The translations under genes were made by a program, and so were the position numbers. Below are positions 1-23,038 of a stretch of DNA of 23,038 nucleotides, piece by piece (within the stretch, counting starts at the first letter, position 1; every line of letters begins with the position of its first letter). The notes beneath the pieces are model-generated. The model was not told the DNA's origin. It saw nothing but the letters and a program-made list of their open reading frames with translations, and searched no databases. The DNA is from a virus, in the IMG/VR virus record IMGVR_UViG_3300034375_003579, positions 1 to 23,038 of that record; one strand, 5' to 3'.

Positions 1-44
1 TGCTTGACGATTAAACCGTTAACAAGCGTTTTTGTGTTTTCCAT
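1..44 (-). CDS. Start of an unidentified gene, cut by window edge
   Basis: An ATG at 44 opens a frame reading MENTKTLVNGLIVK and running off the left edge. Only 14 residues are visible, so no family can be assigned. It begins 36 bases after the stop of the annealing-protein-like gene and is read in the same direction, so it is probably the next gene of the same early operon. No promoter element is visible in the AT-rich gap at 45-80. Confidence 0.6.
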   Translation of the reverse strand, partial: MENTKTLVNGLIVK

Positions 45-80
45 GTTAAAAAATTAAAAATTAATGTTAAAAAAAAATAT

Positions 81-578
81 TTACGCGCTAAATTTTTGCA
101 CGATTTTTTCGCGTTGTTGCGCGCTGACTTCAAATTTTTCAAACACCTTTTTTGCTTGATGCGGTGTTCCATTCAAAGTTTTTTCCAATTGTACATTTGT
201 CAATTTTGGTTTTGCTTGCGGTTTGGTTTGTTTGGATTGATTGTTGACCGCGTTTGCGACTTCTTCAGCCGACGCAATCGACGTGTCAATTCCGATTCCT
301 AAATAACCAAGCGCGCGTCCAAGTGCGGACGTGAAACCGTTTTCAACAAATGACGTTTTATTTATATAAGAACTGTCGCGATATTCTTGCGAATGCGCCG
401 ACGCTTTTTCAGCGCCGTTGTCATCAACAATAGTGACTTTGAAAATTCCTTCCTTCTCGTCTATTGAAACAACTGATTCAACAATTGACCAACCTTTGAA
501 TTGTGGTTGATTATTGAAGTGAATCAATCGTTCATTGACTGGAATGTATTCCTTTCCCTTGATGTTGATTTTCTTCAT
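81..578 (-). CDS. Putative Erf/Rad52-like single-strand annealing protein
   Basis: The 165-residue product resembles phage proteins of the Erf-like single-strand annealing group, which promote pairing of complementary DNA strands during phage recombination. The basis is a block at about residues 72-107 (NKTSFVENGFTSALGRALG followed by GIGIDTSIASAEEV). That matches my memory of an ENxxTSAxGRALGxLGIG signature in such proteins, but no search was possible. A Lys/Gln/Pro-rich linker (about 112-125) leads to a charged C-terminal segment, giving the two-part form common in annealing proteins (core plus linker and tail). The start is ATG and overlaps the end of the upstream HTH gene by 47 bases in another frame. 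A generic DNA-binding role is the alternative. Confidence 0.5.
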   Translation of the reverse strand: MKKINIKGKEYIPVNERLIHFNNQPQFKGWSIVESVVSIDEKEGIFKVTIVDDNGAEKASAHSQEYRDSSYINKTSFVENGFTSALGRALGYLGIGIDTSIASAEEVANAVNNQSKQTKPQAKPKLTNVQLEKTLNGTPHQAKKVFEKFEVSAQQREKIVQKFSA

Positions 579-933
579 TGTTCAAAAAAATTAGACGGTC
601 AAATCCCGCATTGACCAATTTGTTCATTTCATTAATCGTAATCGAACCGGGATTTTCGACACGACTTTTAAGCGTTGGCATTGTACAATCAAGGATTTTG
701 CACACGTCAAAACGTTTTATTTTTAAGCGTTGCAATTCTTGTTTAAAATGCCATTCAAATATTCCATTCATACTTTCAAAATTTTGAATGATAGTGTTTA
801 ATTTTTGAAATGTCAATTCTTGACTTTCATGCCAAAAATCGAATTGCGTTTTTGCAGTTCGAAAAGTTGACAACACTTCGGCGATTTCGTTTCGCGAAAG
901 TGTGATTGTGATTTCATTTTTGTTCATAATCAT
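532..933 (-). CDS. Helix-turn-helix DNA-binding protein (putative)
   Basis: The product has 133 residues. Its N-terminal half (about 8-60) is helical and charged with no recognisable family. Residues about 66-112 look like a Cro/CI-type helix-turn-helix: LQRLKIKRFDVCKILDCTM, then a recognition-like helix TLKSRVENPG and SITINEMNKLVNAGF. It may be a regulator at the boundary between late structural genes and early genes, but no operator was identified. Two starts are possible, ATG at 933 and ATG at 927. A near-match to the -7 element (CAAAATAA on the plus strand at 944-951) lies 10 bases upstream, just after the terminator at 984-1001. The last 15 residues overlap the next gene. Confidence 0.6.
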   Translation of the reverse strand: MIMNKNEITITLSRNEIAEVLSTFRTAKTQFDFWHESQELTFQKLNTIIQNFESMNGIFEWHFKQELQRLKIKRFDVCKILDCTMPTLKSRVENPGSITINEMNKLVNAGFDRLIFLNNEENQHQGKGIHSSQ

Positions 934-983
934 TGCGAATTTACAAAATAAATTTTAAAATAAAAAAATATGTTTCAATAAAA

Positions 984-1001
984 AACCGCCCGAAGGCGGT
1001 T
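984..1001 (-). terminator. Intrinsic terminator after the gene at 1007-1348
   Basis: On the minus strand AACCGCC and GGCGGTT form a 7-bp stem closed by a TTCG tetraloop, with TTTTTTATTG directly after it. It starts 5 bases past the stop codon at 1007. The C(UUCG)G loop is an especially stable RNA loop, so this is a strong candidate. Confidence 0.9.
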
Positions 1002-1006
1002 GATTT

Positions 1007-1348: not shown

Positions 1349-1366
1349 TGTTTTAATTTTATAGTA

Positions 1367-1396
1367 CAAATATAAAAGAATTTTTTTAATTACAAA
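1367..1396 (-). promoter_or_regulatory. Bacteroidota-type promoter for the gene at 1007-1348
   Basis: Minus strand shows TTTG (1396-1393), an 18-base spacer and TATATTTG (1374-1367), an exact TAnnTTTG -7 element. The ATG at 1348 is 18 bases beyond the -7 box. It sits directly downstream of the terminator at 1422-1449. Confidence 0.75.
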
Positions 1397-1421
1397 AGTT
1401 TTTTTAAAAAAAAATAAAAAA

Positions 1422-1449
1422 ACCCCCGCATTCAAAAGAAATTGGGGGT
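1422..1449 (-). terminator. Intrinsic terminator closing the tail gene operon
   Basis: On the minus strand ACCCCC and GGGGGT form a 6-bp GC-rich stem, extendable by one G-U pair, around a loop of about 16 bases. A T-rich tract (about 1421-1401) follows immediately. It lies 29 bases beyond the stop of the tail-tip gene at 1479 and ends the late tail transcript. Confidence 0.85.
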
Positions 1450-1478
1450 CAGCAAACAAGGGAAGGGACGTTTGTGTC

Positions 1479-3675: not shown

Positions 3676-6156
3676 TTATTTTATACGTCCACGATTTGTT
3701 TCGGCGCGTTGTAATGCAACAACAAGGTCTTGACCACGCAATTGGAATGAACCGCCAACGTCAACTTGTTGCGCGCCCCTTGGTTCAATCATTGATTTTA
3801 ATCGGTCAAGCGGTGCAACAACTTCAGGATTTTGACGTGCGCCCGCATATTCCCCGAACATTCCAAGTGTTGGTGTTGATACAATACCACCGTTTGCAAA
3901 CTTTGGAACCTTTTTAAATGCACCCGAAATCGCGGCGGTTGCCCCAGCAATAAGCGCTGGAAGTACGAACGCGGCAAATGGTCCGGCGGCGGCGGCGGAT
4001 TGTGCGGCACCCTGAACCGCAAACCCCATTGATTGCGCTAATGACACCGCAATAAATTGCATCGCATTTGTAATAAAAGACGAAAGAAATGAACCAAACG
4101 CCCCGTCAGCAAGTCCAAGGGATTCGACAATTGATTGTCCCATTGCGCCAAATGCGTCCGAAATACCTTGTCCCATTTGTTCCGAAATAGATTTCATTTG
4201 ATTCATCTTGTTGACTGTTGCATCAATCCCAGCATGTAATTCTTCAAAATCTACGTCGTCAATAAATTCAACCGCATTCGGGTCAAACGCTTCGGCTTCA
4301 GGCGTTCCAAATACACTTGAAAATGTTGGGTCAGCTTCACCGCCCGTTGCAGTCGTTGCGCCCGTTGCAGTTGCGCCAGCCCCGCCAACTGTAAAGATTC
4401 CGGCGACTTTGCTTTTAATTGAAGAAACAACATTGTCAAGTCCTTGTTGCAATCCTTCTTCAGTCACGTTCGCAATCTTTTGCGGACGCATAGATTTTTC
4501 AAATGCTTCGGTAAAGTTTTCAGCCCCTGAAGTTCCAATGTCGGCAAACACGTCTTTGACATTTTCCGCCGTGTCGGTAACACCGTCAATGAGAACATCA
4601 CTAATTCCCGCAAGTCCTTCTTTTATCATGGTTGGACTTAATGAAAAAGCACCTTGCACAATTTTTCCAACATTTGAAAAAAGTCCCTTGATAAAATTCG
4701 CGGCAATTTTGAATTGATTGATTAAGCCATTGACAAGCGCGACACCGGCGTCAAATATTGTTTTAAATAACGCAACAAACCCTTCAATGATTAAACGAAA
4801 CGCCAATGATTCATTGTAAAGGTCAATAAAATAGTTTGCAACGTCAACAAGCGTCTTTTTTACAACGCCCCAGTTTTGAACAACAATTGTTGCAACCGCC
4901 GCAAGTGCGGCAACAACAAGTCCGGCGGGCGTTAGTATCGCACCAAGTGCCGTTGCTAATGCACCCGCAACACTTAAAATTGCCGGAAGTGCCGCGGCAA
5001 TTGCAGTCAGTCCCAAAACCAAACTTTGGGTTTGTGGATTCAAGTTCATAAAAGATTGAACCAATCCTTGAATAAAACTTGTGAATTTTTGAATGTGTGG
5101 CAATACCGCTGACAATAAGGTTCCGCCAACTTCTGTCAATGAATTACGAACACCGGTCAATGCTTTTTGCAATTGAAACGATGCGGATTGTGAAGTTGCG
5201 TCAAATGCGGTTGCCGTCGCGCCTTGAACCTTGTTCATTTCCGCAAAGATTTCACGGGTTGAATCTACGCCCGCACCTAATAAATCCATGACCCCGGACA
5301 ATGCACGAACGTTTCCAAATACCTTTGCGGCGGCTTCGTCATTGCCTTCAAAGTTTGTTTTTAAAATTTCAAGGGTTGCCAATAAACCGTCTTCACGAAT
5401 TGTTTTACGAAGGTCAGCCGACGACAATCCCATTCCGGAAAGTGCATCTTCAGCTTCTTTTGTTGGTTTCAATAAACCATTAAGGATTCCACGCAATTGT
5501 GTTGATGCAACCGCGGCGTTCGTACCCGTTCGGGACATTGCCGCAAATGCCGCACCCACTTCGTTGAATGAAACACCCATGTTTGACGCGATTGGCAAAA
5601 CTGAACCCATTGCGCCAGCAAGTTCAGATGATTCAAGTTTTCCTTCACGAACGGCGGCAACCAAAACGTCAGTTGCGTCCGATGCCCCCAAGGTGTCCGC
5701 GCCGTAAGCATTCATTGCGGACGTTGCAAGGTCGGCAACAGTTGCGGTGTCACCAAGTCCAACCGCGGCGGCTTTCAAAGATGCGTTCAAAACGTTCATT
5801 GCTTGTTCACCTTCCAAACCGGCGGACGTAATAAAAAACAATGCGTCAGCGGCTTCCGATGCTGAACGTCCCGTGTCGGTTGCCATTTGTTTGGCGGTTT
5901 CACCCATTTTGGCAACTTCATCACCCGCGATTCCAACAAGGGATTCAATCTTTGTCATTGACTTGTCAAAGTCAACCGCAAGTTTTACCGATGCACCAGC
6001 AACCAATGTCAACGGCATTGTCAAGTTTCTTGAAATTTTTGAACCTATTGCTTGCGCCTTTGAACCAAAGTTTTTCAAACGTGCGCTTGTCTTATTAAGT
6101 GCCGAATTCAGTTGCGACGCGTCGCCCGTCAAGACGACTTTCAATGTGTTTGACAT
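3676..6156 (-). CDS. Tail tape measure protein
   Basis: The protein sets tail length and lies inside the tail tube. With the ATG at 6156 it has 826 residues; a GTG at 6171 would add five. The first 330 residues carry the TP901-type tape measure core, with DFDKSMTKIESLVGI, MNAYGADTLGASD and GTNAAVASTQLRGILNGLLKP recognisable. Residues about 375-430 are strongly hydrophobic (SLVLGLTAIAAALPAIL and neighbours) and a second hydrophobic stretch lies near 715-760. The C-terminus has the common ending FANGGIVSTPTLGMFGE and NPEVVAPLDRLKSM. ATG is preferred because GTG 6171 falls inside a -7 promoter box. By the usual 1.5 angstrom per residue rule the tail would be roughly 120 nm. A 272-base untranslated region precedes it. 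Confidence 0.95.
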   Translation of the reverse strand: MSNTLKVVLTGDASQLNSALNKTSARLKNFGSKAQAIGSKISRNLTMPLTLVAGASVKLAVDFDKSMTKIESLVGIAGDEVAKMGETAKQMATDTGRSASEAADALFFITSAGLEGEQAMNVLNASLKAAAVGLGDTATVADLATSAMNAYGADTLGASDATDVLVAAVREGKLESSELAGAMGSVLPIASNMGVSFNEVGAAFAAMSRTGTNAAVASTQLRGILNGLLKPTKEAEDALSGMGLSSADLRKTIREDGLLATLEILKTNFEGNDEAAAKVFGNVRALSGVMDLLGAGVDSTREIFAEMNKVQGATATAFDATSQSASFQLQKALTGVRNSLTEVGGTLLSAVLPHIQKFTSFIQGLVQSFMNLNPQTQSLVLGLTAIAAALPAILSVAGALATALGAILTPAGLVVAALAAVATIVVQNWGVVKKTLVDVANYFIDLYNESLAFRLIIEGFVALFKTIFDAGVALVNGLINQFKIAANFIKGLFSNVGKIVQGAFSLSPTMIKEGLAGISDVLIDGVTDTAENVKDVFADIGTSGAENFTEAFEKSMRPQKIANVTEEGLQQGLDNVVSSIKSKVAGIFTVGGAGATATGATTATGGEADPTFSSVFGTPEAEAFDPNAVEFIDDVDFEELHAGIDATVNKMNQMKSISEQMGQGISDAFGAMGQSIVESLGLADGAFGSFLSSFITNAMQFIAVSLAQSMGFAVQGAAQSAAAAGPFAAFVLPALIAGATAAISGAFKKVPKFANGGIVSTPTLGMFGEYAGARQNPEVVAPLDRLKSMIEPRGAQQVDVGGSFQLRGQDLVVALQRAETNRGRIK

Positions 6157-8660: not shown

Positions 8661-11600
8661 TTATGAATTTATTTGTGATTTTAAAGTTTGTATTTCTGTC
8701 TTCAATTCGTTTATCATTTCTTGTTGTTCTTGTATTGCTTTCAATAAATATGTTGGTAAATCACCGTAGGAAACCCCGTCAATTTGCGGTTCGTCAAAAC
8801 CTTCAATTTGTCTTTTGAAAACAAGTTCAGGTAAAACGTCAACAACTTCTTCAGCAATTAAACCAGTTGCATCTTCATTTGTACCTTTGACTTTAAATTT
8901 TACAGTTCTAAGGTTCATCAACTTGTCAATCTGACTGCCAAGGTTTTCGACTTCTTCTTTGTACCTCAATGATGAACTTTGATAATACAATTCTTTTGTT
9001 GAAATATTAAATCTAATTTGAGGATTTGAAACCGATGTACTTGCAAGCAAATCATAAACAAAAAGTCCGCCGTCTGCGGCAATGCGCATTCGTTCGCTTG
9101 CGCCGCCACCAGCTATAAATTGAATTTCACCGTCATCTGTTCCTGACCTTAATGTTAAAAGGTTTGTTGTTACGTTTCTGTATAAAGTATTTTGTCTTGC
9201 CCCGGTTGAACTTTGTGTTCTTAATCCTCCAATCGCATCTGTGCCGCTTGTTTCAACATAAATCCAATTTTCATTTGGTTGAAATGTGTGTAATTTAACC
9301 GCCGGCGAAGTTGTTCCAATCCCGACATTGCCAGTCCCGTCGTCAATTCGTATTCTTTCAGTTCCTGAATCCGTGAAAATCAAATCACCGTCAGCATTCA
9401 CACCAAGTCCCCATTGTTCAGCGCCCGACGCTTCTTGAATTACTATTGCGGTGTTGTTTGTATTTGTTTTTACCGCAATGTTACCGTCGGCAATGTTGTC
9501 GCTTGAATCACAATCACCAACTTCAAGTGTTGTGTTTGGCGAAGTCGTGCCGATTCCAACGTTGCCAGAGTTATCTTGAATAACTACATCCCCTCCCGTG
9601 TTATCTCTAATTGTATTAGCGTAAACAATGCCGTCAGTTTGAATGTTGCCGCCTAAAACTGTTAATTTATGCCCTGGCGAAGTTGTACCAATGCCGACTT
9701 TGCCGTCGTTGTTTATTCTCATTCTTTCGGTACCGCCTGAATGTCCGCTTGTTGCAAATTTAATTAGATTATCAGATGCAATTTTTAGTTGCCCATTATT
9801 TGCAACAGTTAACTTTGCCGCGCCAGGTTGTAATGATGCGGTTCTTTCTATTAAGATAGAGGTATTGCCAGTTGTTTCAAACTTTGCTACATCAACAGAA
9901 CCGGTTGTGGCAACATGAAGTTTTTTACTTGGCGAAGTCGTTCCGATTCCAACATTGCCACTTGAATCAATTCGCATTCTTTCGCTTGTGCTTCCCGCAA
10001 AAAATCTGATATTTGTGCTTGCATTTGTTCTTGAAGCAATTAATAAGTCACCATTGCCACCCCCCGCACCTGAAGTTGCCGATGCAATATATCCTTTGAC
10101 TTGCGCAGTGGGGATTGCGCTGACGCTTGATATTTCAACCCCTAAATTTGAAGAACCCGCAACACCAAACGACCCCTTTCCTACAACCTCAAAATTTGTA
10201 TATGGCGAAGTCGTTCCGATTCCAACATTGCCAGCGCTAGTGATGCGCATTCTTTCAGTATATGACGAACCGTTTATGAATCTTAGATTGCCGCCAGCTG
10301 ATGTACCGATATTAAAATTATTGCTTGGGTCTAATTCAATTGCAGTTCTTTCAGTTCCGGCACTATTTCTGAATCTTATTTCATCATTATTTTGCAATAA
10401 TATATTGCCGTCTATTTCTAACTTTTGACTTGGCGAAGTCAATCCAATTCCAACGTTGCCGTTTTGAAAATATGATGTGCCGTTTCCTCTGATGCTAAAT
10501 ATTTCAGTTGTATCTTGTTTTCTTACAAGCAAAGGCGCGTCACCTGAATCAACGCCCGCAGTTATTATGACACCGCTTGAACTTGCATTGTTTTGAAACC
10601 AACCCGCCCAACCAGCAGTTGACCGAATGTTTCTTATTCCGTCACCTACAACGTCAAATTTGAATGAAGGCGAAGTCGTTCCGATTCCGACTTTGCCGTC
10701 TGAAGTTATGCGCATTGATTCATCTAAATTCTCATCATTTTGTGTAGTAAAAAACGCTAAATTGGTACTACTGTCAGAGTCAGATGATGCCTTTCTTATT
10801 GCCGCAATACTAGCGCCAACTAAACTATTGCCTGGTGTTGAACTATCATTGCCCGCTATTCTAAACTTAATACCAACACCCTCACCCCCGGCTTGGTTTA
10901 TAGAATTTCCGTCATCTCTTGATGAAACAGTAAGTAAATAATCTATTGCTGAAACGGCTGATAATTGTTTGCTGATTTCTAAAGAAGAAACCGGCGAAGT
11001 CGTGCCAATTCCGACGTTGCCAGATGAATTTACTCTTAATTTTTCAGTATTATTTGTAAAAACTTGAAAAGTGCCACTTTGAAGTTGTAAGATTTTAGAT
11101 GTATTTTGATAAACATAATAAGAATGGTTTGAACCAAATTTAAATTGATTGTTTCCGTATTCAGTTACATATTCATTACCATTATTATGTAAAAAGCTAA
11201 TTTTTAAAGCCATGAAAGGATTTGAGTCACCGTTTGCTTGTGAACCGTAAAGTTCCAATTTTGTGTCAGGCGAATCCGTTCCAATTCCGACTTTGCCGCC
11301 GTTGGGCTGTATTGCTAAATTATAAGTTGTAGCTGTGCCATCTGTTCTTTGTGAACTTATATAGCCAACCCCGCTAGAATTAGCACCAATAGCAACTCCA
11401 TAATTATCGTCAGAAGTGCTATTGCCAAAAACAGCAGCTGCCGTATTAGAACCGGCTGTTGGTATTGTAGTTCCACCTTTGGACACTTGAAGTCCAGCGG
11501 CCGGTGAATCCGTTCCAATTCCGACTTTGCCGTCTGACGTGATTCGCATCACTTCAGCGCTATCGGTTGTGAATTTAAAAACTTGTGAATCTAAATGCAA

Positions 11601-11894
11601 AAAAGCATATCCGTTAGCGTCATCGTAGTCGCCAATTTTGACGCTTAAATCTGATATTTTTAAAGAATCAATCCCATTTGGCGTTGTGACATAAACTTCA
11701 CCGTCAACATCAAATTTCCCCCTTGGTGAACCTTGTCCGATTCCAACCGCGCCGCCCGTTCCTAAATAAACATTTGAAGAATTTCCAAGCCCGTCGGTGA
11801 TTAGTTTATAACTCCCACCAAGCGGGTCATTGTCGGTTGTTTTTAAAAGCCCGTCGTAAGTATTTTTTATTCTTTTGTCAGTAAGTGAAGCCAT
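8661..11894 (-). CDS. Tail fibre with C-terminal S74 intramolecular chaperone
   Basis: This 1077-residue fibre or appendage should bind the host receptor. The N-terminal segment (SLTDKRIKNTYDGLLKT) probably anchors it to the virion. The shaft has eleven copies of a (K/N)VGIGxxSP motif, mostly preceded by ERMRI-type strands and followed by a KLEV-type strand, spaced 46 to 108 residues apart with variable segments between. From about residue 970 it has the S74 chaperone domain seen in endosialidases and T5 L-shaped fibres, including SSLRYK, TGLIAEEVVDVLPELV and YGDLPTYLLKAIQEQQ, ending in a coiled coil. S974 and K979 fit the Ser-x4-Lys dyad, so autocleavage near 973/974 and trimer assembly are expected. 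ATG 11894 follows a -7 box at 11911-11918. Confidence 0.9.
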   Translation of the reverse strand: MASLTDKRIKNTYDGLLKTTDNDPLGGSYKLITDGLGNSSNVYLGTGGAVGIGQGSPRGKFDVDGEVYVTTPNGIDSLKISDLSVKIGDYDDANGYAFLHLDSQVFKFTTDSAEVMRITSDGKVGIGTDSPAAGLQVSKGGTTIPTAGSNTAAAVFGNSTSDDNYGVAIGANSSGVGYISSQRTDGTATTYNLAIQPNGGKVGIGTDSPDTKLELYGSQANGDSNPFMALKISFLHNNGNEYVTEYGNNQFKFGSNHSYYVYQNTSKILQLQSGTFQVFTNNTEKLRVNSSGNVGIGTTSPVSSLEISKQLSAVSAIDYLLTVSSRDDGNSINQAGGEGVGIKFRIAGNDSSTPGNSLVGASIAAIRKASSDSDSSTNLAFFTTQNDENLDESMRITSDGKVGIGTTSPSFKFDVVGDGIRNIRSTAGWAGWFQNNASSSGVIITAGVDSGDAPLLVRKQDTTEIFSIRGNGTSYFQNGNVGIGLTSPSQKLEIDGNILLQNNDEIRFRNSAGTERTAIELDPSNNFNIGTSAGGNLRFINGSSYTERMRITSAGNVGIGTTSPYTNFEVVGKGSFGVAGSSNLGVEISSVSAIPTAQVKGYIASATSGAGGGNGDLLIASRTNASTNIRFFAGSTSERMRIDSSGNVGIGTTSPSKKLHVATTGSVDVAKFETTGNTSILIERTASLQPGAAKLTVANNGQLKIASDNLIKFATSGHSGGTERMRINNDGKVGIGTTSPGHKLTVLGGNIQTDGIVYANTIRDNTGGDVVIQDNSGNVGIGTTSPNTTLEVGDCDSSDNIADGNIAVKTNTNNTAIVIQEASGAEQWGLGVNADGDLIFTDSGTERIRIDDGTGNVGIGTTSPAVKLHTFQPNENWIYVETSGTDAIGGLRTQSSTGARQNTLYRNVTTNLLTLRSGTDDGEIQFIAGGGASERMRIAADGGLFVYDLLASTSVSNPQIRFNISTKELYYQSSSLRYKEEVENLGSQIDKLMNLRTVKFKVKGTNEDATGLIAEEVVDVLPELVFKRQIEGFDEPQIDGVSYGDLPTYLLKAIQEQQEMINELKTEIQTLKSQINS
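9304..11754 (-). repeat. Eleven degenerate direct repeats inside the fibre gene
   Basis: A block of about 30 bases, plus-strand form GGCGAAGTCGTTCCGATTCC and continuing to TTGCC, recurs with starts near 9304, 9538, 9676, 9931, 10204, 10432, 10669, 10993, 11269, 11503 and 11725. Each copy encodes GxVGIGxxSP. Intervals are multiples of three (138 to 324 bases), so recombination between copies would keep the frame and could change shaft length. The copies differ at third positions, showing they are old or under codon-level drift. Confidence 0.9.
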
Positions 11895-11938: not shown

Positions 11939-12370
11939 TTATTTGTGACGGTTATTCCCCATGACTTTTTCAATGCCACGGCTTCCAAAGTAAGCGCCAA
12001 CAATTAATGACAAAACACCTTGGATTGATTCAAGCGGGTATTCTAAAAACCAACCCGTCACGTATGCAAGCGAAAAAAAGACAAGTGTCAAAGGGCGCAC
12101 GTTTTTTGTCAACCAAGTTCCCGTTGCTGACATGTCGGATTGCCAACGCTTTGTGACTTCTTGCATTTCAACCAAATCCATTTCCAGCATCTTCAGCGCG
12201 GTTTCTTTATCCGGTTGGGGTATTGTGTCGTCTTTTTCAATTAAACGCTTTACAACGCCCAAAACGCCCGAATCCGGCAATACGTCGTCAAGTCCCGAAC
12301 CAATGGTTGAACCGATTTGATTCAAGAATTTTCCGACTTTCGTTTCTTTGAACGACTTTTTTTTAGACAT
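11939..12370 (-). CDS. Holin-like membrane protein (3TM holin family type)
   Basis: The 143-residue product has a soluble N-terminal half (ending about residue 80) and two predicted transmembrane segments at about 92-109 and 114-131, followed by a short basic tail. The segment WLTKNVRPLTLVFFSLAYV, preceded by WQSDMSATG, is the pattern I associate with the Holin_3TMs family. Holins perforate the inner membrane at lysis and let the endolysin reach peptidoglycan; the adjacent amidase supports this. The frame is open to 12472, but ATG 12370 (MSKKKSFKETKVG) is chosen: it leaves only an 8-base overlap with the amidase, and the extension has no domain character. Other non-holin membrane roles cannot be excluded. 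Confidence 0.75.
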   Translation of the reverse strand: MSKKKSFKETKVGKFLNQIGSTIGSGLDDVLPDSGVLGVVKRLIEKDDTIPQPDKETALKMLEMDLVEMQEVTKRWQSDMSATGTWLTKNVRPLTLVFFSLAYVTGWFLEYPLESIQGVLSLIVGAYFGSRGIEKVMGNNRHK

Positions 12371-12800
12371 TGTGTGCGTCGTTTTGGTTTGTAATATGTT
12401 TGTATTCTTCAACGGCGTCAAAACTTGGACATGCCTTTGTCGAAAAATTATTGTGACCATAGATTCCCGCATGCGGAAACATTCCCTTCAGTTGCCAAAG
12501 TAGTTCCTCAAGTGCCAAGCATTGTTCCGGCGTTCGGGTGTCAATCCAATTTTTCATTTCTTTGTCCATTCCGCCAACGTAACAAACGCCAATTGAATGA
12601 CGGTTTTTTCCTTTGCAATGCGCGCCAATTTTTTCAATTGGTCGCCCGTCTTCAATGCACCCGTCAAGTCCAATGACAAAATGATAACCAATGTCAGAAA
12701 ACCCGCGTTCCAAATGCCAACGTCGAATTTCGTCAACACTTGTTTCACGTCCGGCGGGTGTTGCCGTACAATGAACAATGATTTGGTCAATTCTTCTCAT
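12363..12800 (-). CDS. N-acetylmuramoyl-L-alanine amidase (endolysin)
   Basis: The 145-residue product is a single-domain, zinc-dependent amidase of the PGRP/T7 lysozyme (Amidase_2) type that cuts the bond between N-acetylmuramic acid and L-alanine in peptidoglycan. Expected residues are present at T7-like spacing: zinc ligands H10 (IIVHCTAT), H116 (YGHNNF) and C124 (KACPSFD), and catalytic Y39 (IGYHFVI) and K122. The lengths match T7 lysozyme closely. There is no signal peptide and no wall-binding domain, so export depends on a holin, here the next gene. The start overlaps the stop of the upstream tail-completion gene as ATGA, indicating translational coupling. Confidence 0.95.
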   Translation of the reverse strand: MRRIDQIIVHCTATPAGRETSVDEIRRWHLERGFSDIGYHFVIGLDGCIEDGRPIEKIGAHCKGKNRHSIGVCYVGGMDKEMKNWIDTRTPEQCLALEELLWQLKGMFPHAGIYGHNNFSTKACPSFDAVEEYKHITNQNDAHNV

Positions 12801-13234
12801 ATTTGAAACACGCGGTTTGATAGTTCCATAATCGAACGAAAATAAGTTTTGTCAATCATGTCGTCTTCAACATAGGAAATTGATTCGATTTGTGAAGTGT
12901 ATATTTTAAAACCATTTGAACCAAGGTCAACATAACCCCCCGAACGTGTGCGTACGATTTGCGCAATTTTGTCGGTGATTATATTGCAATCAAGTTCACC
13001 CCCGGTGTCGGAATCAAAACGCGTATTGACTTCGATTCGTGTGATGACTTCGGTGTTGTATGAATCACGATTGTTGTCAATTTCGTTTGTTTCAAGTGAA
13101 TAAACACGAATGTAAGGAAACGTTGCATTTGAAGGGACGCGCCCATAAACCGGGACGTCAACCGAATCCAATTGAACATTCCCGTCAAGGGCGTCAAGGA
13201 TTCCTTTGCGAACAAAACGAATTGGGTCTTTCAT
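12797..13234 (-). CDS. Tail completion/terminator protein (putative)
   Basis: The 145-residue product starts KDPIRFVRKGILDALDG and contains VPVYGRVPSNATFPYIRVYS, ending ISYVEDDMIDKTYFRSIMEL. This layout (helix, YDxVP-like loop, FPYI strand, RxxxxEL final strand) is that of the tail terminator and DUF3168-like proteins that cap the tube and join it to the head. It overlaps the HK97 gp10-like gene by 4 bases upstream and the amidase by 4 bases downstream. Position after the gp10-like gene and before the tube supports the role; the family call is from pattern only. Confidence 0.75.
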   Translation of the reverse strand: MKDPIRFVRKGILDALDGNVQLDSVDVPVYGRVPSNATFPYIRVYSLETNEIDNNRDSYNTEVITRIEVNTRFDSDTGGELDCNIITDKIAQIVRTRSGGYVDLGSNGFKIYTSQIESISYVEDDMIDKTYFRSIMELSNRVFQI

Positions 13235-13680
13235 CTTACAATGTTTTTAATTTTACGATTCATGTTTGACAACATGTCGCGTAATGCTTCACGCGCTGAA
13301 TTGTACAAATAAGGGCGCGCCGGCAAATCCACTTTCTTTTTTCCCCTGAATTTTTCAGCATAAGATTCAGGAATTCCAAGTTCTTTTAGTTCTGACAAAT
13401 CAACTTCACGCCCCGTTCCGAATTCAACATAGGGCGCGTATTTCATACCAGCTTCAACAACGGCTTGGTCACCTTCTCGTTGTGCTTTGATTGACTTCAT
13501 CAAATCACCCGTGTCACGCGGGACACGTTCTTTTGCAAGTCGTTGCGTTGTAAGTCCCCACGTTCCAACCTCATTTGACAATTCTTGTTTTGACAATCTG
13601 AACAAACGTTTCATTTTTTGGTCAAGTTCTTTCAAATCAACCGGGTCAACATAAACACGTGAATATTGAAACTTTGCCAT
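13231..13680 (-). CDS. HK97 gp10-like tail completion protein
   Basis: The 149-residue product shows the HK97 gp10-like signature: RVPRDTGDLMKSI at about 52-64, YAPYVEFGTG at 81-90 and ARPYLYNSAREAL at 121-133. Proteins of this family act in completing the tail end or joining it to the head. A basic Lys-rich segment FRGKKKVD lies between the motifs. The start ATG shares its last base with the stop of the upstream head-closure gene (13680), and the end overlaps the next gene by 4 bases, so the run of connector genes is translationally coupled. Confidence 0.9.
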   Translation of the reverse strand: MAKFQYSRVYVDPVDLKELDQKMKRLFRLSKQELSNEVGTWGLTTQRLAKERVPRDTGDLMKSIKAQREGDQAVVEAGMKYAPYVEFGTGREVDLSELKELGIPESYAEKFRGKKKVDLPARPYLYNSAREALRDMLSNMNRKIKNIVR

Positions 13681-14003
13681 TATATTTCAGTCGCTTTGAT
13701 TGTTGTAAAAAAGTCTTCAACCGAATCAATTCGGTCGTTGATTCTCATTTTTTCGCTTGACCCGTCAAATTGTAAAATGTCCGAATCCAAAATTTGGTCA
13801 GCGGTCTTTTTCCTGAATTGCAATTCAATTTCAAGTTTACGTTGCCGCAAACCGCCTTCTTGTTCGATTTCCCCGCGTTTCTCGACTTGATTGCACCAAA
13901 CCGTCGCAATTGTTGATTCGCTTGATGTAAACCCCCCAAAACCGTCCGCGGACTTTGTAAGGCGCAAAATCTTAATTCGCGAATTGAAATCACCGCTTTG
14001 CAT
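13680..14003 (-). CDS. Head closure protein (SPP1 gp16-like)
   Basis: The 107-residue product has the small beta-barrel pattern of phage head-tail joining proteins: FNSRIKILRLT at the start, DGFGGFTSSESTIATVWCNQVE, then IELQFRKKTADQIL and a strand pair MRINDRIDSV. These proteins sit below the connector and close the head pore. It shares one base with both neighbours, the connector gene at 14003 and the gp10-like gene at 13680. The size is normal for the family. Confidence 0.85.
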   Translation of the reverse strand: MQSGDFNSRIKILRLTKSADGFGGFTSSESTIATVWCNQVEKRGEIEQEGGLRQRKLEIELQFRKKTADQILDSDILQFDGSSEKMRINDRIDSVEDFFTTIKATEI

Positions 14004-14548
14004 TATACAAACATTTGTTTGTGTGAAGACAAAATCGACTTCACGTTTGTCGGGATTTCACTTAATATGCGCCCGCCTTCAACAAAGTCAGCACGATTGT
14101 CATAATAAGTTGAAACCATTTGAAGAAGTGCTTGTTTGATTAAATCGTCCGACAATCCCGCCGTTGTGTAAGTGATTAGAACTTCCTTTGCAAAAGGCGT
14201 ATTTGAACCGGACAAAACTTGATTGACACCACTTGTCAAAATGATTTGTTCTTTGTTCAATCCCTTTTCCTCATATTCCGCCGTTTGACCCTGAACGGTC
14301 ACGCTTGAAATTGACGCAACGGGCGCAAAAGGAATCTGAATGAATCCTTCGGCTTTGTCCATGTAATATTTGCGTTGTTTTGCAACTATGTCGCGCGAAA
14401 TATAATTTTCACACCAAATGCGCGCTTGAACAATCATGCGGTCAATCAACGTGTCGTCAGCGGTTGTGTCTATACGAACGTAGTCTTTAACGTCTGAAGT
14501 TGTAATCAATTCCGAACCCGTTGTCGATACGATTTCAATTTGTCGCAT
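14003..14548 (-). CDS. Head-tail connector protein (HK97 gp6-like)
   Basis: The 181-residue product has the helical bundle of the gp6-like connector family: TTSDVKDYVRIDTTADDTLI followed by IDRMIVQARIWCENYI near the N-terminus, a central beta insert with IPFAPVASISSVTV, and a C-terminal helix pair (DLIKQALLQMVSTYYDNR). It binds the portal as a ring and receives the head-closure protein. The stop and start codons are shared with the neighbouring genes by one base (14548 and 14003), marking a tight operon driven from the promoter at 14753-14781. Confidence 0.9.
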   Translation of the reverse strand: MRQIEIVSTTGSELITTSDVKDYVRIDTTADDTLIDRMIVQARIWCENYISRDIVAKQRKYYMDKAEGFIQIPFAPVASISSVTVQGQTAEYEEKGLNKEQIILTSGVNQVLSGSNTPFAKEVLITYTTAGLSDDLIKQALLQMVSTYYDNRADFVEGGRILSEIPTNVKSILSSHKQMFV

Positions 14549-14820: not shown

Positions 14821-15192
14821 CTAATTGAAGAATGGTGCAAAGTTATTAAAAAAATTCGAATACTTTCCGCCGGGAATAAACCTGAAGGCGCGTTGTTCTT
14901 CATTTGGAATAATGAAAAAACCGTCAAAAACATAAATCGCAAAAACGTCAACCAAATCTTTTGTGTAAAAATTTCCAGTCGTTCGCATTGTTACGTGAAC
15001 CCCTTTTTTGACTTCAGATTGTACCCGTTCATTTGCATTTTTGATTTGTACTTTTGAAAGCCGCCCTTCATATTCAACAATACAATCGTATCTTGACGAA
15101 TCAAGCAAAGGCATTGAAACGTTCAGTCCGCATTCCATTGCGGCGGTCGCGAATTTGTATTCAGCGAAACAACCTTTTTGGTTGGTGTTCAT
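14821..15192 (-). CDS. Stand-alone PD-(D/E)XK-type nuclease (putative)
   Basis: The 123-residue product has the compact layout of PD-(D/E)XK endonuclease-like proteins: a first helix with KGCFAEYKFATAAME (E11), a strand pair with SRYDCIVEYEGRL (D36) and KVQIKNAN (Q49, K51). The usual acidic residue of the ExK motif is Gln here, a variant known in parts of the superfamily. It may cut or process DNA, for example as a resolvase or a homing-type nuclease, but substrate cannot be told. Terminators lie on both sides (15225-15252 and 14766-14794) and a possible weak promoter at 15213-15244, so it is a single-gene unit inside the structural region. A catalytically inactive DNA-binding role is an alternative. 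Confidence 0.7.
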   Translation of the reverse strand: MNTNQKGCFAEYKFATAAMECGLNVSMPLLDSSRYDCIVEYEGRLSKVQIKNANERVQSEVKKGVHVTMRTTGNFYTKDLVDVFAIYVFDGFFIIPNEEQRAFRFIPGGKYSNFFNNFAPFFN

Positions 15193-16105: not shown

Positions 16106-17266
16106 TTAAGCAGTTTCAAGCGCGGCTTTGTCAACGCTGAAATCACCGTTCACAAATGCGTTTGGTAGGTAATTAGTCAATGCAACTCTTTCCATTACAC
16201 GAACAGTCACGAAACCGTCACGAATGTTTGTGCCGTCTTCTCTGAAGAATTCAACAGAAACATTGTCACGAACCCAAAGTTGTGTTCCAACATTAAAGTT
16301 TCCGATTAAGTATTTGTCGGAAGTGATTGCAGTTGAAAGAACTACGGGAACGCCGTTGATACGTGGTTCAAGTCCTTGATACCATTGGTCTTTCAAATAA
16401 TTGTTGTTTGAATCTTTCAATAACAATATTTTGTGAAAGTCCGTTGGGTTTATCATAATGTAGTTGGCTTGATAGTTTGCAAGTGCAAGCTGGTTCATTG
16501 CAACCGTGAGAACGTCAAATTCATTTGCGCTTTCAATTGCGTTAGCGAATCCGCCAGCCGCAAAGTCAGTTGAATCGGTGATGATACCACTTAATTGTGG
16601 GGCAACTCCGGTTCCACTTAAAATTTGTGTGTCCTCAACTTCCAAAAGTTTTTCAGGCGCACGCGCTGACAAATAGCTTGTCAATTGTGGCGTATCTGCA
16701 AGCATTTCTTCAGAGATTCGGAAATAACTTCCAATTTTCTGAACGTTGGCATCACTTGCAGTCATATCGAAATCGGATTGCGCAAGCGTAGAACCTTCGG
16801 CAGTTGCCGCGGCGCCATTGTCATACGCGCTTTCCTTTACGAAACGAACAACGTCAGATTGTGTGCTTCCGACTGGAATAAGTTGACGAACGTGCGTTGA
16901 ACGCGTTGGGTCAAACTTATATCCCGCAACTCTATCCGCTGGAATTACTTCACCGGTATATGAATTTGCAGTTGTCATGTCACCCGCTTTGATGTCAAAT
17001 TTTGCGGAACGCGCATTTCCGTTTTTAAGGGCGTCAAGCGCACCTTCGGAAATTGCTTTTGTAAGTGAATTTTTGAATGATTTTGGTTCACGACTTTCAT
17101 TGAATTTTTTAGTCGCTACTTCTTGGGCGTCAATTCTTGAATTCAGTTCGTTGAATTTTTCAGTCAACGCGTTGAATTCGTCTTTGTTAGTTGACGCAAC
17201 GTTTTCAAATTTGACTTCGATTTCTTTTGCAATCGCGTCAATTTGAGATTTTGTGTTTTCTTCCAT
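16106..17266 (-). CDS. Major capsid protein, HK97 fold
   Basis: The 386-residue product forms the capsid shell. Residues about 1-60 are a charged coiled coil, the scaffolding-like delta domain; cleavage would be expected somewhere near residues 85-100, just before TTANSYTGEVIPADR. The rest has HK97-family features: FVKESAYDNGAAATAEGSTLAQSDFDM (a strand and E-loop region), KIGSYFRISEEMLADTPQL (spine helix), and a C-terminal P domain with YIMINPTDFHKILLLKD and IRDGFVTVRVMERVALT. ATG 17266 lies 2 bases from the stop of the prohead protease gene, so both share the promoter at 17967-17994. It is closed by a terminator, as expected for a highly expressed unit. Confidence 0.95.
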   Translation of the reverse strand: MEENTKSQIDAIAKEIEVKFENVASTNKDEFNALTEKFNELNSRIDAQEVATKKFNESREPKSFKNSLTKAISEGALDALKNGNARSAKFDIKAGDMTTANSYTGEVIPADRVAGYKFDPTRSTHVRQLIPVGSTQSDVVRFVKESAYDNGAAATAEGSTLAQSDFDMTASDANVQKIGSYFRISEEMLADTPQLTSYLSARAPEKLLEVEDTQILSGTGVAPQLSGIITDSTDFAAGGFANAIESANEFDVLTVAMNQLALANYQANYIMINPTDFHKILLLKDSNNNYLKDQWYQGLEPRINGVPVVLSTAITSDKYLIGNFNVGTQLWVRDNVSVEFFREDGTNIRDGFVTVRVMERVALTNYLPNAFVNGDFSVDKAALETA

Positions 17267-17268
17267 GA

Positions 17269-17952
17269 TTAAATTTTTTGAAGAAGGTTCAACATATAAT
17301 TAAAAGGTTCAGCAGCGTCAACCTCGTTTTTCGGCAACGTGGTTTCCTCAACCGGCGTTGTGAATTGTTCAAACAATGATTTTAGCTTTAAAAGTTCGGC
17401 TTCAATGGACAATCCCATTTCGTCCGAAATATTGCCTTTGCGTATTAGCTTGGCAAGTTTTTCAAAACGTTCACAATGTTGCTTTGTCAACGCTTCATTT
17501 TTTACATCAAGGATTTTCGCTTGGTCATTGGCGGCAATTGTGACCGCGCTTATTTCGTATAATTTGACCTCTGATATTTCGCGAATTTCCCCTTTTTGTT
17601 GTTTTTGTATTGGCATAATTCCAACCGAATTTTCGGTGATGACGCCGGCTTTCATTAGTTCAATCGTGTCCATTCCAAGTTGCGTTTTTGCAACCTCGGC
17701 AACGAAAACAAGTCCCTTGTCGTCTTCATATAGTTCAACCATTTTTCCAATTGGTTTGAACATGTCGTGTTGGTATAAGTATTTGACACGTTCGCCGTTT
17801 TCTTCAATGGTCTTTTTATATGCACCTTTGACAATCACGTCGTTGTCAGAATCTTTATTTCCAAAATAAGAACCGTAACCCTTGACAATGCCCGCCTTTT
17901 CATCGGCGTCTAGCAATTCCCCAACGGGCGCGGTTTTGAATAAAATAGACAT
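17269..17952 (-). CDS. Prohead protease, HK97 type (family S78)
   Basis: The 227-residue product is the serine protease that trims the capsid protein N-terminus during head maturation. Expected residues are visible: H62 in YLYQHDMFKPIGK, S109 in GVITENSVGIMPI and an acidic E133 in VKLYEISAVTIAA, with spacing like HK97 gp4. The C-terminal part (about 150-227) is helical and likely acts as a scaffold-like tail. The frame is open to 18033, but ATG 17952 (MSILFKTAPVGE) is right: it starts the family core and leaves a short gap containing a promoter element. It is directly followed by the capsid gene. Confidence 0.95.
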   Translation of the reverse strand: MSILFKTAPVGELLDADEKAGIVKGYGSYFGNKDSDNDVIVKGAYKKTIEENGERVKYLYQHDMFKPIGKMVELYEDDKGLVFVAEVAKTQLGMDTIELMKAGVITENSVGIMPIQKQQKGEIREISEVKLYEISAVTIAANDQAKILDVKNEALTKQHCERFEKLAKLIRKGNISDEMGLSIEAELLKLKSLFEQFTTPVEETTLPKNEVDAAEPFNYMLNLLQKI

Positions 17953-17966: not shown

Positions 17967-17994
17967 CAAATTTACAAATTTTTAATTTAGACAA
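17967..17994 (-). promoter_or_regulatory. Candidate promoter for protease-capsid unit
   Basis: Minus strand TTG (17994-17992), 17-base spacer, TAAATTTG (17974-17967). ATG 17952 is 14 bases downstream. The -33 part lies inside the end of the minor head gene. Confidence 0.6.
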
Positions 17995-18892
17995 TTGACG
18001 AAGTTCCCGCGCCGGACAAGCCAACACCAACACCCGTCAATCCTTCACGCGCTTGCGCACCTTCAACCGGAATTGGAATGATACCGCAACGACAATTGAT
18101 TCGATTTGCCCCCGAACCTGAAGGGTCACCGGGGCGTCGCATTTTATCACTTGAAATTTCAGTCGGCACGTCAAAAAACCCGTCAAAAGGAATATCCGGG
18201 TGTCTTTCCATTTCAACGTGGTCGGCTTTGTCGCCGTTAAAAAAAGAACGCACACGACCGTCGCGCGCAGTTATCCAACGCTTTTTCAATTGGTCGGGCG
18301 GAAACAAGGTTGTTGCGCCTTTTTCAACACCAAGGTTTGCCGCGTTTGTCGCTTCAGTACGAACCAACCGACGTGCTTGGAAATCTGAATATCGTGTGAA
18401 CTCTGAACGTAAAATCCGGGCGCGCGCCGCTTCACCAAGTGAATTGAATTCAGGGTCTTGCATTCTTCTTTGTAAAATCTTTTTAAGTGTTGCAAGCGCA
18501 GTTCCTTGAACCAAAACGACTTGCGTTCCGGCATGTTGTAAGGCGTAAGCATTAAACGCTTGTTGAAATACGTCTTCAAGTTTTTCCGAATCAAATGCCT
18601 TTGGAATATACCGCCGAAAATTGTCTGCATACCACTTGGCAAAGTCCAAACCGATGTCAGTATAAATTGCAATGTAAATGTTTGTCCAATCGTCGGTTTT
18701 GAAAATCCCTTCAGTTTGAATGTTGCTTGTTTGAATGAAGGTGTCAATCGCTTGAAAATAGTTTCGCTTGTAGAAACGCTTTAAACGCGCGACAAGGCGG
18801 TTTTCAGCACGTTCCAAACGCTTTGAAAAAGCCGAACGCCAATCGTCAACGAAATCTTTTTTGACAATTTCTTTTTCCCTCAATGCTTGCAT
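17987..18892 (-). CDS. Minor head protein, Mu F/SPP1 gp7-like
   Basis: The 301-residue product belongs to the head morphogenesis proteins injected or packed with DNA and needed for portal-related assembly. Its N-terminal half is helical and basic. The C-terminal half carries the family motif chain: RLVRTEATNAANLG (about 175-188), RWITARDGRVR (205-215), a histidine-containing loop (DHVEMERHPDIP) and PGDPSGSGANRINCRC (254-269) with the conserved paired cysteines C267 and C269. The last 25 residues are Gly/Ala-rich. A TTG at 18919 would extend it by nine residues, but ATG 18892 is one base from the preceding stop and is preferred. Confidence 0.9.
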   Translation of the reverse strand: MQALREKEIVKKDFVDDWRSAFSKRLERAENRLVARLKRFYKRNYFQAIDTFIQTSNIQTEGIFKTDDWTNIYIAIYTDIGLDFAKWYADNFRRYIPKAFDSEKLEDVFQQAFNAYALQHAGTQVVLVQGTALATLKKILQRRMQDPEFNSLGEAARARILRSEFTRYSDFQARRLVRTEATNAANLGVEKGATTLFPPDQLKKRWITARDGRVRSFFNGDKADHVEMERHPDIPFDGFFDVPTEISSDKMRRPGDPSGSGANRINCRCGIIPIPVEGAQAREGLTGVGVGLSGAGTSSIV

Positions 18893-18893
18893 C

Positions 18894-19259
18894 TTATTTT
18901 TTTGTGTTTTTGAATTCAAAGTTCACGCCCGAAATGGAAAGTTTTTCAATCACTTCGGTTTGTAAATCGCGCAACGTTTTTTCAATCTTGTCTTTTTCGT
19001 CAATGATTTGCGCAACTTGTTTTTCCAAACTTTCGTTTTTCGCTTTCATTTTAGAAACTTCTTCAGGGTCTTTGCCAACAAAAGTTGCAATCACAACAGA
19101 TAATGAACCGACAAGCATTCCGACAATCACTTTGAAAATGTCGTTGTTTGATTCCGGGATTTGATAAAAAGCTAAAAACAACAAAAGTCCCATGACGAGA
19201 AAAAATATAATTCCCGCACCAATATAACCGCGCAATTCTTTGTCTTTGTAAATGTTCAT
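18894..19259 (-). CDS. Two-transmembrane protein with coiled-coil tail
   Basis: The 121-residue product has two hydrophobic helices, about 12-33 (GYIGAGIIFFLVMGLLLFLA) and 42-61 (FKVIVGMLVGSLSVVIATFV), joined by a short loop, then a long charged coiled coil (about 65-105). I do not recognise the family. The topology is that of a membrane hairpin with a cytoplasmic coiled coil. ATG 19259 is preferred to a TTG at 19277 because it leaves a one-base gap from the previous stop. It lies in the run of envelope-type genes between portal and minor head protein, so it is expressed with the head genes, although its job may be at the membrane. Confidence 0.75.
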   Translation of the reverse strand: MNIYKDKELRGYIGAGIIFFLVMGLLLFLAFYQIPESNNDIFKVIVGMLVGSLSVVIATFVGKDPEEVSKMKAKNESLEKQVAQIIDEKDKIEKTLRDLQTEVIEKLSISGVNFEFKNTKK

Positions 19260-19590: not shown

Positions 19591-19591
19591 T

Positions 19592-19870: not shown

Positions 19871-19875
19871 TTTTA

Positions 19876-20148: not shown

Positions 20149-20150
20149 TT

Positions 20151-22397
20151 TTATTCGTTTTCAAGTTTAGACAATGTTTCTTTGACCCAATTACGCATTG
20201 AAGTCCCGCCCCAAAGATTCCATGCAACAAAACCGTTGTCCTTCCATGGCGTTTCCTTGTATTGTTCCGCGATTTTTTCGTTGCCTTCATGACGTGCAAA
20301 AAATGAATTGATTCTTCGCAACATGTCAACATTCAAAGGTGCGCGTTCAGATATCATGCGCGCCCTTCGCCAACCCGTTGGGGTTCCCGCGCGTACTTCG
20401 TCGCCGTATTTTTCGCGCCACTCAATCATTCGTTTTGCGTTGTTGGTTGCGCTTTGTGGGTAATTGTCAAACGTGTGACCGTCTTTTTCTTCTTCTTCTT
20501 TTGAACTCATTGGGTGTCCCTCGGGTAACAAATCGGTGTCGTGTTTTCCTGAACGGAACTTTCCATTTCTAAGTGCAAACAAATAAGAATTCACACGCGC
20601 CATTGCCCATTGCTGGGGTGAAGAAACATTCGGTCGAACCGATTGTGGGTTGGTTCTGTACGCGCCAATACCACGTTCATAAACTTCAAACAACGTGTCA
20701 ACGTCAGTTGATTTGTCAGGGTTGTTGTCAACTTCGTCGTTGTGTTCTTCAACCTTCTTTTTAAGTGCGGCTTTCAATCGCGCTGAAATCTGTTTTTCTT
20801 CTTCTTCATCGTGATAATTCTTTTGCGCTTCAATCGCGGCTTCATACGCTTCATGCGAATCAAAAGGCATGTAAACTGTTTCGCCGTCAAATGAATGTTG
20901 GTGGTGTGAAGGTTTTCCGCCAAGTTCAACCGCACGCGCTTCAGCTTCTTCAACTGTTGTAAACACGTCGGTCATTCCCGGGACAAGCGCCTTGAATAGC
21001 TTGACCATTTCGTCAATTGGCTTGTCGTCTTTCGGGTCTTCAATAGGGTCAGGGTCAGGCATTTCAACACCAACGTTTTGTGTTGGAATAAGGTTCGCCG
21101 GTATGTAATAGTCATCAAGTGCCGGGGTGTCTTCATCTTGACCGTATGACATCGCAACACGTTTTTCGTTTGGCGTCAACCACCACGCTTGCGTCAATTG
21201 TCCAACGACTTTTTCCGTTTCTTCTTGCAATTCAGGAATTGTTGTGAAGTCAAAGTCAAGGAATAAATTGTCACCAAACTTTGGAACCAACCAACGGTTC
21301 AATTCGTCGCGTACTTTGACAAGTTCAGGAATGATTGCATTTTGATACAATGCCTTTTTGGCTTCCTTCATGTTGTTGTAAGTAGTTGATTCGGTGTTGT
21401 TTAATAGTTGAACCGGGACGTTGTAAACATTACACAAATCCTTGATTGATGCGTTGTATTGTTCAATAAGTGACACGTCAGCGGCGTTCAATCCGAAGTT
21501 AACCCAAGACAATTTTTTTGGTGTTATTATTACATCACCCGCATTGTTTGAACCTTGGAATTGTTGGCGGAATTTGTCTTTCAATTGTTGCGCTTGCATT
21601 TCATTAAGGTCGCCTTCTTCACTCATTAAGACACCACGCGCCGTTTGGTTTTGTAAATACTTTACACCAGTTGTGACGGCTTCATTGTTTGTTGTAAGTG
21701 AACGAAGTCCAGCACGCAAAGGCGATTGACCGTACAAATGCGAACCCGTCCCGTCATAATACGGGTTGAAATCCTTGATGTGACAAATGTCGTCAGCGGG
21801 CAAATCAAATGTCCCGTTGTATTCAATTCGATATCCTTTGACCGGTTGCATAAAACCGCCCGAAACAATTTCCATGACTTGCGACGGCATGACATAAAGT
21901 TCAGAATAACGCCCTTGATTCATTCCGGTTTCCGGTGCAATTCCGTAGATGTATCGGTTGCCGGTAAGTTTTCCGAATGCAATCAATTCAGTCAAAAATG
22001 AATTGTAAGATTGCGAAGGGTTTGGACGTTCCAATAGTTCATGCAATGGCGTTCCTTCCAATTCGTTCAACGCTTGTTTTCTTAGGATTTCCGCTTTGTA
22101 AAGTGCGCCGGAATCAATTGTCCCGCTTGTCAATGCCTTGTATCTTTTTAGGTCGTTTTCATTTGTCTTTTCGTACACTTGAAACGGAATGGTTGTTGCC
22201 GCTTTTGTTATGATGTTGACAAGTGAATAGATTGTCGCGTTCTTTCGATACCCTTGTTGAATATATGAATCATCGTTTTCAGGATTCCAAACTATTGATT
22301 CACCTAAATATTGATAAATTGCCTTGTTGTACGCTTCGGCAGTTTGTTGCGCGTTTTTTGTGATTAGATTTGAAAGGCGTTGAAGTAGTGATGCCAT
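20151..22397 (-). CDS. Portal protein fused to extra C-terminal modules
   Basis: The 748-residue product is the dodecameric DNA portal with an unusual extension. Residues about 1-445 form the HK97-type portal: ATIYSLVNIITKAATTIPFQVY, TPLHELLERPNPSQSYNSF, GNRYIYGIAPETG and a QYNASIKDLCNVYNVPVQLL helix block with LLNNTESTTYNNMKEA. After an acidic Asp/Pro linker, a module at about 478-525 reads EAEARAVELGG, SFDGETVYMPFDSHEAYEAA. A second at about 565-640 contains ERGIGAYRTNP and SSPQQWAMARVNSYLFALR. A third at about 650-745 has NAKRMIEWREKYGDEVRAGT, GWRRARMI, NSFFARHEGN and ETPWKDNGFVAWNLWGG. I recall modules two and three from marine phage head proteins, function unknown. Usual HK97-type portals have about 400 to 500 residues, so some 290 are extra. 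Confidence 0.9.
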   Translation of the reverse strand: MASLLQRLSNLITKNAQQTAEAYNKAIYQYLGESIVWNPENDDSYIQQGYRKNATIYSLVNIITKAATTIPFQVYEKTNENDLKRYKALTSGTIDSGALYKAEILRKQALNELEGTPLHELLERPNPSQSYNSFLTELIAFGKLTGNRYIYGIAPETGMNQGRYSELYVMPSQVMEIVSGGFMQPVKGYRIEYNGTFDLPADDICHIKDFNPYYDGTGSHLYGQSPLRAGLRSLTTNNEAVTTGVKYLQNQTARGVLMSEEGDLNEMQAQQLKDKFRQQFQGSNNAGDVIITPKKLSWVNFGLNAADVSLIEQYNASIKDLCNVYNVPVQLLNNTESTTYNNMKEAKKALYQNAIIPELVKVRDELNRWLVPKFGDNLFLDFDFTTIPELQEETEKVVGQLTQAWWLTPNEKRVAMSYGQDEDTPALDDYYIPANLIPTQNVGVEMPDPDPIEDPKDDKPIDEMVKLFKALVPGMTDVFTTVEEAEARAVELGGKPSHHQHSFDGETVYMPFDSHEAYEAAIEAQKNYHDEEEEKQISARLKAALKKKVEEHNDEVDNNPDKSTDVDTLFEVYERGIGAYRTNPQSVRPNVSSPQQWAMARVNSYLFALRNGKFRSGKHDTDLLPEGHPMSSKEEEEKDGHTFDNYPQSATNNAKRMIEWREKYGDEVRAGTPTGWRRARMISERAPLNVDMLRRINSFFARHEGNEKIAEQYKETPWKDNGFVAWNLWGGTSMRNWVKETLSKLENE

Positions 22398-22413
22398 GAA
22401 AGAAAATTTTGTT

Positions 22414-22440
22414 CAAATTTACGAAATTTTAAATGACAAA
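22414..22440 (-). promoter_or_regulatory. Candidate promoter for the portal gene
   Basis: Minus strand TTTG (22440-22437), a 15-base spacer (short) and TAAATTTG (22421-22414), with AAATTTCG before the box. ATG 22397 is 16 bases downstream. The -33 part lies in the last codons of the terminase gene. Confidence 0.5.
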
Positions 22441-23038
22441 GAATTCGTTTCGATTTTTGTATTTCGAATAAAGTCCATATCGCAACGCGTCGGTTGCATG
22501 ATTGTGTTTGTCCACGGGTTTGTTGATTATTGTCCCGTCCTTTAATTCTTCCCAAACGTATTTCATTTGTTCGGATTTGACGTTGGTTGCTTTGTTGGAA
22601 ACATAGAAATCAAATTCCTTCATAAGTGAAATCCCGGCATTGATTGAACCCGCGCCCTTGATTGCCCCCTTTGCTAAAATTCCCATTTGTTTTAATTCTT
22701 CAATTGATTTTGGTTCGGCGGAATCACAATACATCAAAAGGTCATCAAGTTCCAACGACTTCAAATGATTTGCAATGTCACGGTTTGTCATTCCGGTTTT
22801 GTACAATACTTCTTTGACAAACACTTTGTCGTTTTTCTTTGCAATCAAACAAATTGCCGTCGGGTCATTTGTATAGCCAAAGTCACAACCCATGAACCAA
22901 TCAAGTTCGTCGGGAAATTCCGATTCGTCAATGTAGTTCCAATCGCGAAAGATTTGTCGTTGACTGAACACCGCACGTTGCCCTTCGCCATATACACGCC
23001 AAAAGTCCGGGTCGCGTTTTTTCAAACGTTCCAATTCC
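22429..23038 (-). CDS. Terminase large subunit, C-terminal nuclease half (partial)
   Basis: About 203 residues are visible; the gene continues past the right edge, where the frame is still open (the first in-window codons give ELERLKKRDPDF). The part shown is the RNase H-like nuclease domain that cuts concatemeric DNA during packaging: the first acidic residue in FMGCDFGYTNDPTA, the second in LMYCDSAEPKS and the third in HNHATDALRYGLYS. Numbering from the first Leu after the edge Glu, these are D51, D104 and D182. The ATPase half is outside the window. It ends 31 bases before the portal ATG. Confidence 0.95.
   Translation of the reverse strand, partial: ELERLKKRDPDFWRVYGEGQRAVFSQRQIFRDWNYIDESEFPDELDWFMGCDFGYTNDPTAICLIAKKNDKVFVKEVLYKTGMTNRDIANHLKSLELDDLLMYCDSAEPKSIEELKQMGILAKGAIKGAGSINAGISLMKEFDFYVSNKATNVKSEQMKYVWEELKDGTIINKPVDKHNHATDALRYGLYSKYKNRNEFFVI

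Follow-up and report, generated by a model that had tools for sequence, protein, structure and literature searches.

Absence of GATC from a marine phage genome fragment and changing short-word avoidance among its relatives

A stretch of phage DNA 23,038 bases long, an IMG/VR record that we call the window, does not contain the tetranucleotide GATC, and the question is what removed it. The absence had been claimed by an initial annotation made from the letters alone, and a program count gave zero on either strand. Several tens of sites had been anticipated there, in agreement with the 42 expected from a second-order Markov model, 58 from a first-order model and 81 from base composition. GATC has the lowest observed/expected ratio among all 256 tetranucleotides of the window, and at 0/42 counts as eliminated (observed/expected under 0.1, 15 or more sites expected). 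The loss covers coding and non-coding DNA, as had also been noted: GATC is missing from all three coding frames and from the 2,522 non-coding bases. Codon usage is ruled out as its cause since 48.2 coding sites are expected when synonymous codons are shuffled, and the loss thus exceeds any codon-usage effect. The single GGCC was again found at 11499..11502, with 35 expected. The initial list of words was incomplete, as it missed the absence of GAGC/GCTC from either strand, where base composition predicts 108, the scarcity of CTAG (4 occurrences) and the depletion of GAG/CTC, AG/CT and TA.

The window and its near relatives

The record is the packaging, head and tail part of an HK97-type phage of approximately 30 kb, a size derived from near relatives, one of which (G001) contains 28.5 kb of such a genome. 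All genes judged real lie on the minus strand of the window. In descending order, these encode the C-terminal part of the terminase large subunit, open at the window edge (22429..23034; PHROG 5653, 4.3e-39, and Pfam Terminase_3C), a portal protein with a DUF5824-like C-terminal part (20151..22397; Pfam Phage_portal 1.8e-57, DUF5824 1.4e-6), a MuF-type head morphogenesis protein (17987..18910; PHROG 2468, 1.7e-25), a head maturation protease (17269..17949; PHROG 80, 8.1e-47) and the HK97-type major capsid protein (16106..17266; Pfam Phage_capsid 4.6e-39). A PDDEXK_5 small nuclease-like protein (14821..15192; Pfam PF11645, 8.2e-14) is placed between the capsid and adaptor genes, and is followed by the head-tail adaptor (14003..14548; PHROG 442/40), a tail completion or neck protein (13231..13680; PHROG 5), an N-acetylmuramoyl-L-alanine amidase (12363..12800; Pfam Amidase_2, 3e-14), a tail fibre-like protein with a C-terminal Peptidase_S74 chaperone (8661..11894; Pfam PF13884, 9.2e-8) and the tape measure protein (3676..6153; PHROG 991, 4.5e-79).

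G001, a near-complete genome of the window's clade, encodes a DnaA-like HTH protein, a VRR-NUC nuclease, a DUF3799 PDDEXK protein and a Toprim/DnaB-like primase-helicase; neither a DNA polymerase nor a methyltransferase was found among the genes examined, and the lack of a methyltransferase is consistent with a phage that does without the sites instead of protecting them. No integrase was noticed among the genes examined, by inspection rather than by a family-wide HMM test, and a scan of one genome collection gave no convincing prophage copy. Site avoidance is stronger in non-temperate phages. The one match in that scan was a phage-like contig of the family (L179, PBPJ01000031.1; capsid 58% identical) within a Woesearchaeota MAG, where it is probably contamination. 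Both G001 and G002 (L161-L168) carry a 10-N gap, at 28466-28475 and 1495-1504 respectively, and from about 30 kb on consist of DNA with a very different signature. Both contigs appear to be chimeric, each scaffold joining two phages, and the foreign part was left out of the avoided-word lists for the window's clade.

Loss of different words in different clades

The major capsid protein was used to fetch relatives, 160 loci being collected from portal and capsid searches, and the portal protein was used for a tree of 60 rows. Every fetched member of the window's clade (capsids at least 92.7% identical; L001-L007, L069, L081-L096) lacks GATC. Other clades have ordinary numbers of GATC but are without CATG, CCGG, GGCC, CTAG, CGCG or GCGC. 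The minimum number of changes on the portal tree was 5 for GATC, 6 for GGCC and 7 for CATG; CCGG, CTAG and CGCG each needed 3, and GCGC needed 1. With at least five changes, loss of GATC shifts from relative to relative, as is to be expected of host pressure. A search for degenerate palindromes extended the lists of avoided words to GATC, GGNCC, RGSCY and CASTG in the window's clade, CATG and CTNAG in clade 9, GGCC, CATG, CCGG, GTSAC and GANTC in clade 1, and RGNCY, CCWGG, CGCG, CCGG and GCSGC in clade 10. Individual genomes avoid 2-18 such palindromes, against none in Markov simulations and 0-7 in four cultured flavophages. The lists are rich in Type II-like specificities, and many of the words correspond to enzyme specificities of the kind catalogued in REBASE. 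Accessory genes share most of their genomes' signature and contain none of the eliminated words, compared with about 37 expected by our sum over eight genomes.

RGNCY or AGNCT is avoided in clades 3, 10, 5b, 5c and 5e (L171-L174, L188-L195), for example 0/129 in G014, 0/72 in G007 and 0/59 in G016, and we know of no enzyme with either specificity. G014 carries a C5-type DNA methyltransferase-like gene (L190:12783-13418; Pfam) that has a look-alike, by sequence, in G016 (G016:14839-15471; L194/L195). An N6/N4-type DNA methyltransferase-like gene is present in G009 (L180:6754-7554), with related genes in G007 and G011; the signature of these N6/N4-type genes is milder than that of the rest of their genomes, as if they had been acquired later.

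Elimination of this kind is not confined to the family. In 60 random viral contigs chosen by one shared 14-mer, and therefore a rough sample only, 12 strongly avoided one or more 4-base palindromes. Compared with these controls, the family has more 4-base palindromes that are eliminated altogether (p 6e-7). A general avoidance of palindromes beyond that of other phages was rejected, the summed 4-, 5- and 6-base palindromes giving p 0.92, 0.52 and 0.14. Two of the control contigs, L229 and L237, have no ACGT, with 32 and 19 expected. GATC is a known recognition sequence (Sau3A in PMC6532042; also PMC6286503). Near-complete site elimination has been described in about a tenth of phage genomes, and GATC was under-represented in 46/46 phages whose hosts encode corresponding enzymes (Rusinov et al. 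2018, PMC6286503), while staphylococcal phage K is without GATC and evades Sau3A (PMC6532042). Together with the eliminations in the controls, these reports make the GATC loss one of a known kind, and it is a clear-cut new instance of a strategy already described for phages. The window has in common with the cases of PMC6286503 a ratio under 0.1 at 15 or more expected sites and palindromic Type II-like words, GATC among them; unlike those cases, its clade avoids 5-6 words at once (one relative up to 18), and 2-3-base words are depleted too. Complete elimination of GATC in a tailed phage is shared with phage K, although that genome is 140 kb whereas the window is a 23 kb fragment of about 30 kb, from a marine phage with a probable Bacteroidota host that has also lost GGCC and other words.

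Selection, mutation and the proposed reader of GATC

Of the possible causes of the loss, we propose selection by a restriction activity that reads GATC, which has the best support. Most likely this is a phage of marine Bacteroidota whose lineage was purged of GATC, and very nearly of GGCC and some degenerate palindromes such as RGSCY, GGNCC and CASTG, because unmodified DNA was cut at these words in the hosts it encountered, favouring the survival of variants with fewer sites. The host is suggested by the context of translation starts. In G001, Shine-Dalgarno-like sequences precede 0/28 genes, upstream regions are 48% A, and the motif TTTG-N-TAnnTTTG occurs 9 times compared with 2.8 in shuffles. 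A missing Shine-Dalgarno sequence, A-rich upstream regions and this motif are traits of Bacteroidota, and the start context points to a host in that phylum. A search for tRNAs as a host signal gave a single tRNA-Gly, in one relative only, and neither a host nor a GATC-specific enzyme was found in the analysis. The suggestion in the initial annotation that GATC loss is itself an indirect clue to the host can be kept as a weak one; the missing Shine-Dalgarno sequences and the richness in A of the upstream regions are more telling.

Recent substitutions bear on whether the pressure is selective. At the tips of the window's clade, 672 substitutions were set against an expectation that preserves the type of substitution, its codon position and whether it is synonymous, and that uses the actual flanks. 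No GATC was gained, with 16.4 gains expected, and GAGC was gained once (15.7 expected). For GAG there were 23 gains against 70.5 expected and 11 losses against 2.4, while the control palindromes CATG, GTAC, ACGT and GCGC were gained at or above approximately the expected rate. Gains of GGCC were not suppressed (4 vs 4.6 expected), and pressure on this word may therefore be past or weaker.

The initial annotation had named selection against restriction of the MboI/DpnII type. Its first element, restriction pressure at GATC, is supported by the clade-wide absence, the at least five changes on the tree, the loss in all frames and in non-coding DNA, the lack of gains at the tips and the parallel losses, by sister clades, of other sites resembling Type II specificities. 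Its second, the assignment to MboI/DpnII, goes beyond the data, as methyl-dependent (DpnI-type) or phosphorothioate readers of GATC would leave the same trace; we infer that GATC was read by a restriction activity of the host, or by one resembling restriction. There is a small chance that the reader was non-classical, that is a methyl-dependent Type IIM enzyme (DpnI-like), a phosphorothioate (Dnd-type) system or mismatch-repair signalling. GATC is named as a phage-avoided Type IIM site in PMC6286503, and sequence statistics do not distinguish such readers from MboI-type cleavage; that GGCC, RGSCY and CASTG-like words were lost at the same time points instead to a set of ordinary Type II pressures, and nothing more specific stands against a non-classical reader.

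Another possibility, which we regard as quite improbable, is that base composition, codon usage or mutational bias removed GATC without any restriction. The genome does have an extreme short-word bias (AG 0.53, TA 0.46 and GAG/CTC 0.09 of expectation), and context-dependent mutation could also be the reason why depleted words are gained less and lost more often at the tips. Yet GATC is at 0 against 42 with trinucleotide frequencies accounted for and at 0 against 48 after codon shuffling, and the 4-base word that is lost varies between sister clades. Furthermore, gains of depleted words at the tips exceed losses (TA 111:44, AG 133:87), which is not the balance expected at mutational equilibrium, and between clades these words change to many others (AG to AA, TG, CG and GG), which argues against one mutational channel. 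The tip test and this varied replacement make mutational bias unlikely as a sole cause, and along with the accessory-gene result they favour selection, although context-dependent mutation may have contributed to the depletion of the 2-3-base words. Avoidance of the words that a nuclease of the phage itself cuts, for example PDDEXK_5, so that host DNA could be degraded safely, is most improbable: PDDEXK_5 is present in 13/13 family genomes compared and diverges faster (median identity 42%) than capsid or portal (67-68%), but a number of other small structural genes diverge just as quickly, and the 2-18 unrelated palindromes avoided per genome are more than one small nuclease would read.

Short words and the genome signature

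The proposed restriction pressure at GATC does not explain the much wider depletion of shorter words (GAG/CTC, AG/CT and TA), and this depletion, with the swings in signature between clades, is the unexpected part of the data. Over both strands of the window the count of GAG/CTC is 50, where dinucleotide frequencies predict 270. The values of GAG/CTC and AG/CT lie below those of all 60 random viral contigs (control minima 0.24 and 0.66). Throughout the window's clade GAG is low whatever its flanks, with GAGC nearly zero, and 4-6-base sites therefore do not account for the depletion of GAG. Avoidance of Shine-Dalgarno sequences was ruled out as its cause by the loss on both strands. Clade 1 shares the deficit of CTC, but there GA is low and AG is normal, and in clade 10 a deficit of GAC is partly composite, RGACY being found once with 464 expected from composition while other contexts are milder. 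The nearest characterised phages, the Cellulophaga and Flavobacterium siphophages phi17:1, 11b, snusmum and phi10:1 (portal and capsid about 27-34% identical, Bacteroidota hosts), are unlike the window in having ordinary AG (0.96-1.12) and TA (0.84-1.03), with 0-7 words avoided over 28 kb.

The signature is uniform along G001, and the mean absolute dinucleotide difference (delta*) within the window's clade is 0.012-0.035. Between clades, whose capsids are 70-93% identical, its median is 0.258 and its maximum 0.408, compared with a median of 0.150 for unrelated viral contigs; G006 and G007, with capsids 93% identical, still differ by 0.189. Restriction sites of four to six bases do not obviously explain these differences. 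Depletion of 2-3-base words indicates that another force also shapes the window genome, and this force could contribute to the 4-base losses. One explanation, which we put forward tentatively and think rather less likely than not, is that besides restriction sites there is selection against 2-3-base words (GAG/CTC in the window's clade and in clade 1, its sister, and different words in the others), through a host defence or a constraint at the DNA level that has a very short specificity and switches between clades. If so, the view of the dinucleotide signature as a slowly changing family trait would be overturned. The short-word depletion and the swings between clades bear on the extent to which genome signature can serve for binning, kinship and host prediction. 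The family provides a natural experiment in which close phage relatives have been purged of different words, and the restriction pressures on uncultured marine Bacteroidota are thereby legible in the DNA of their phages.
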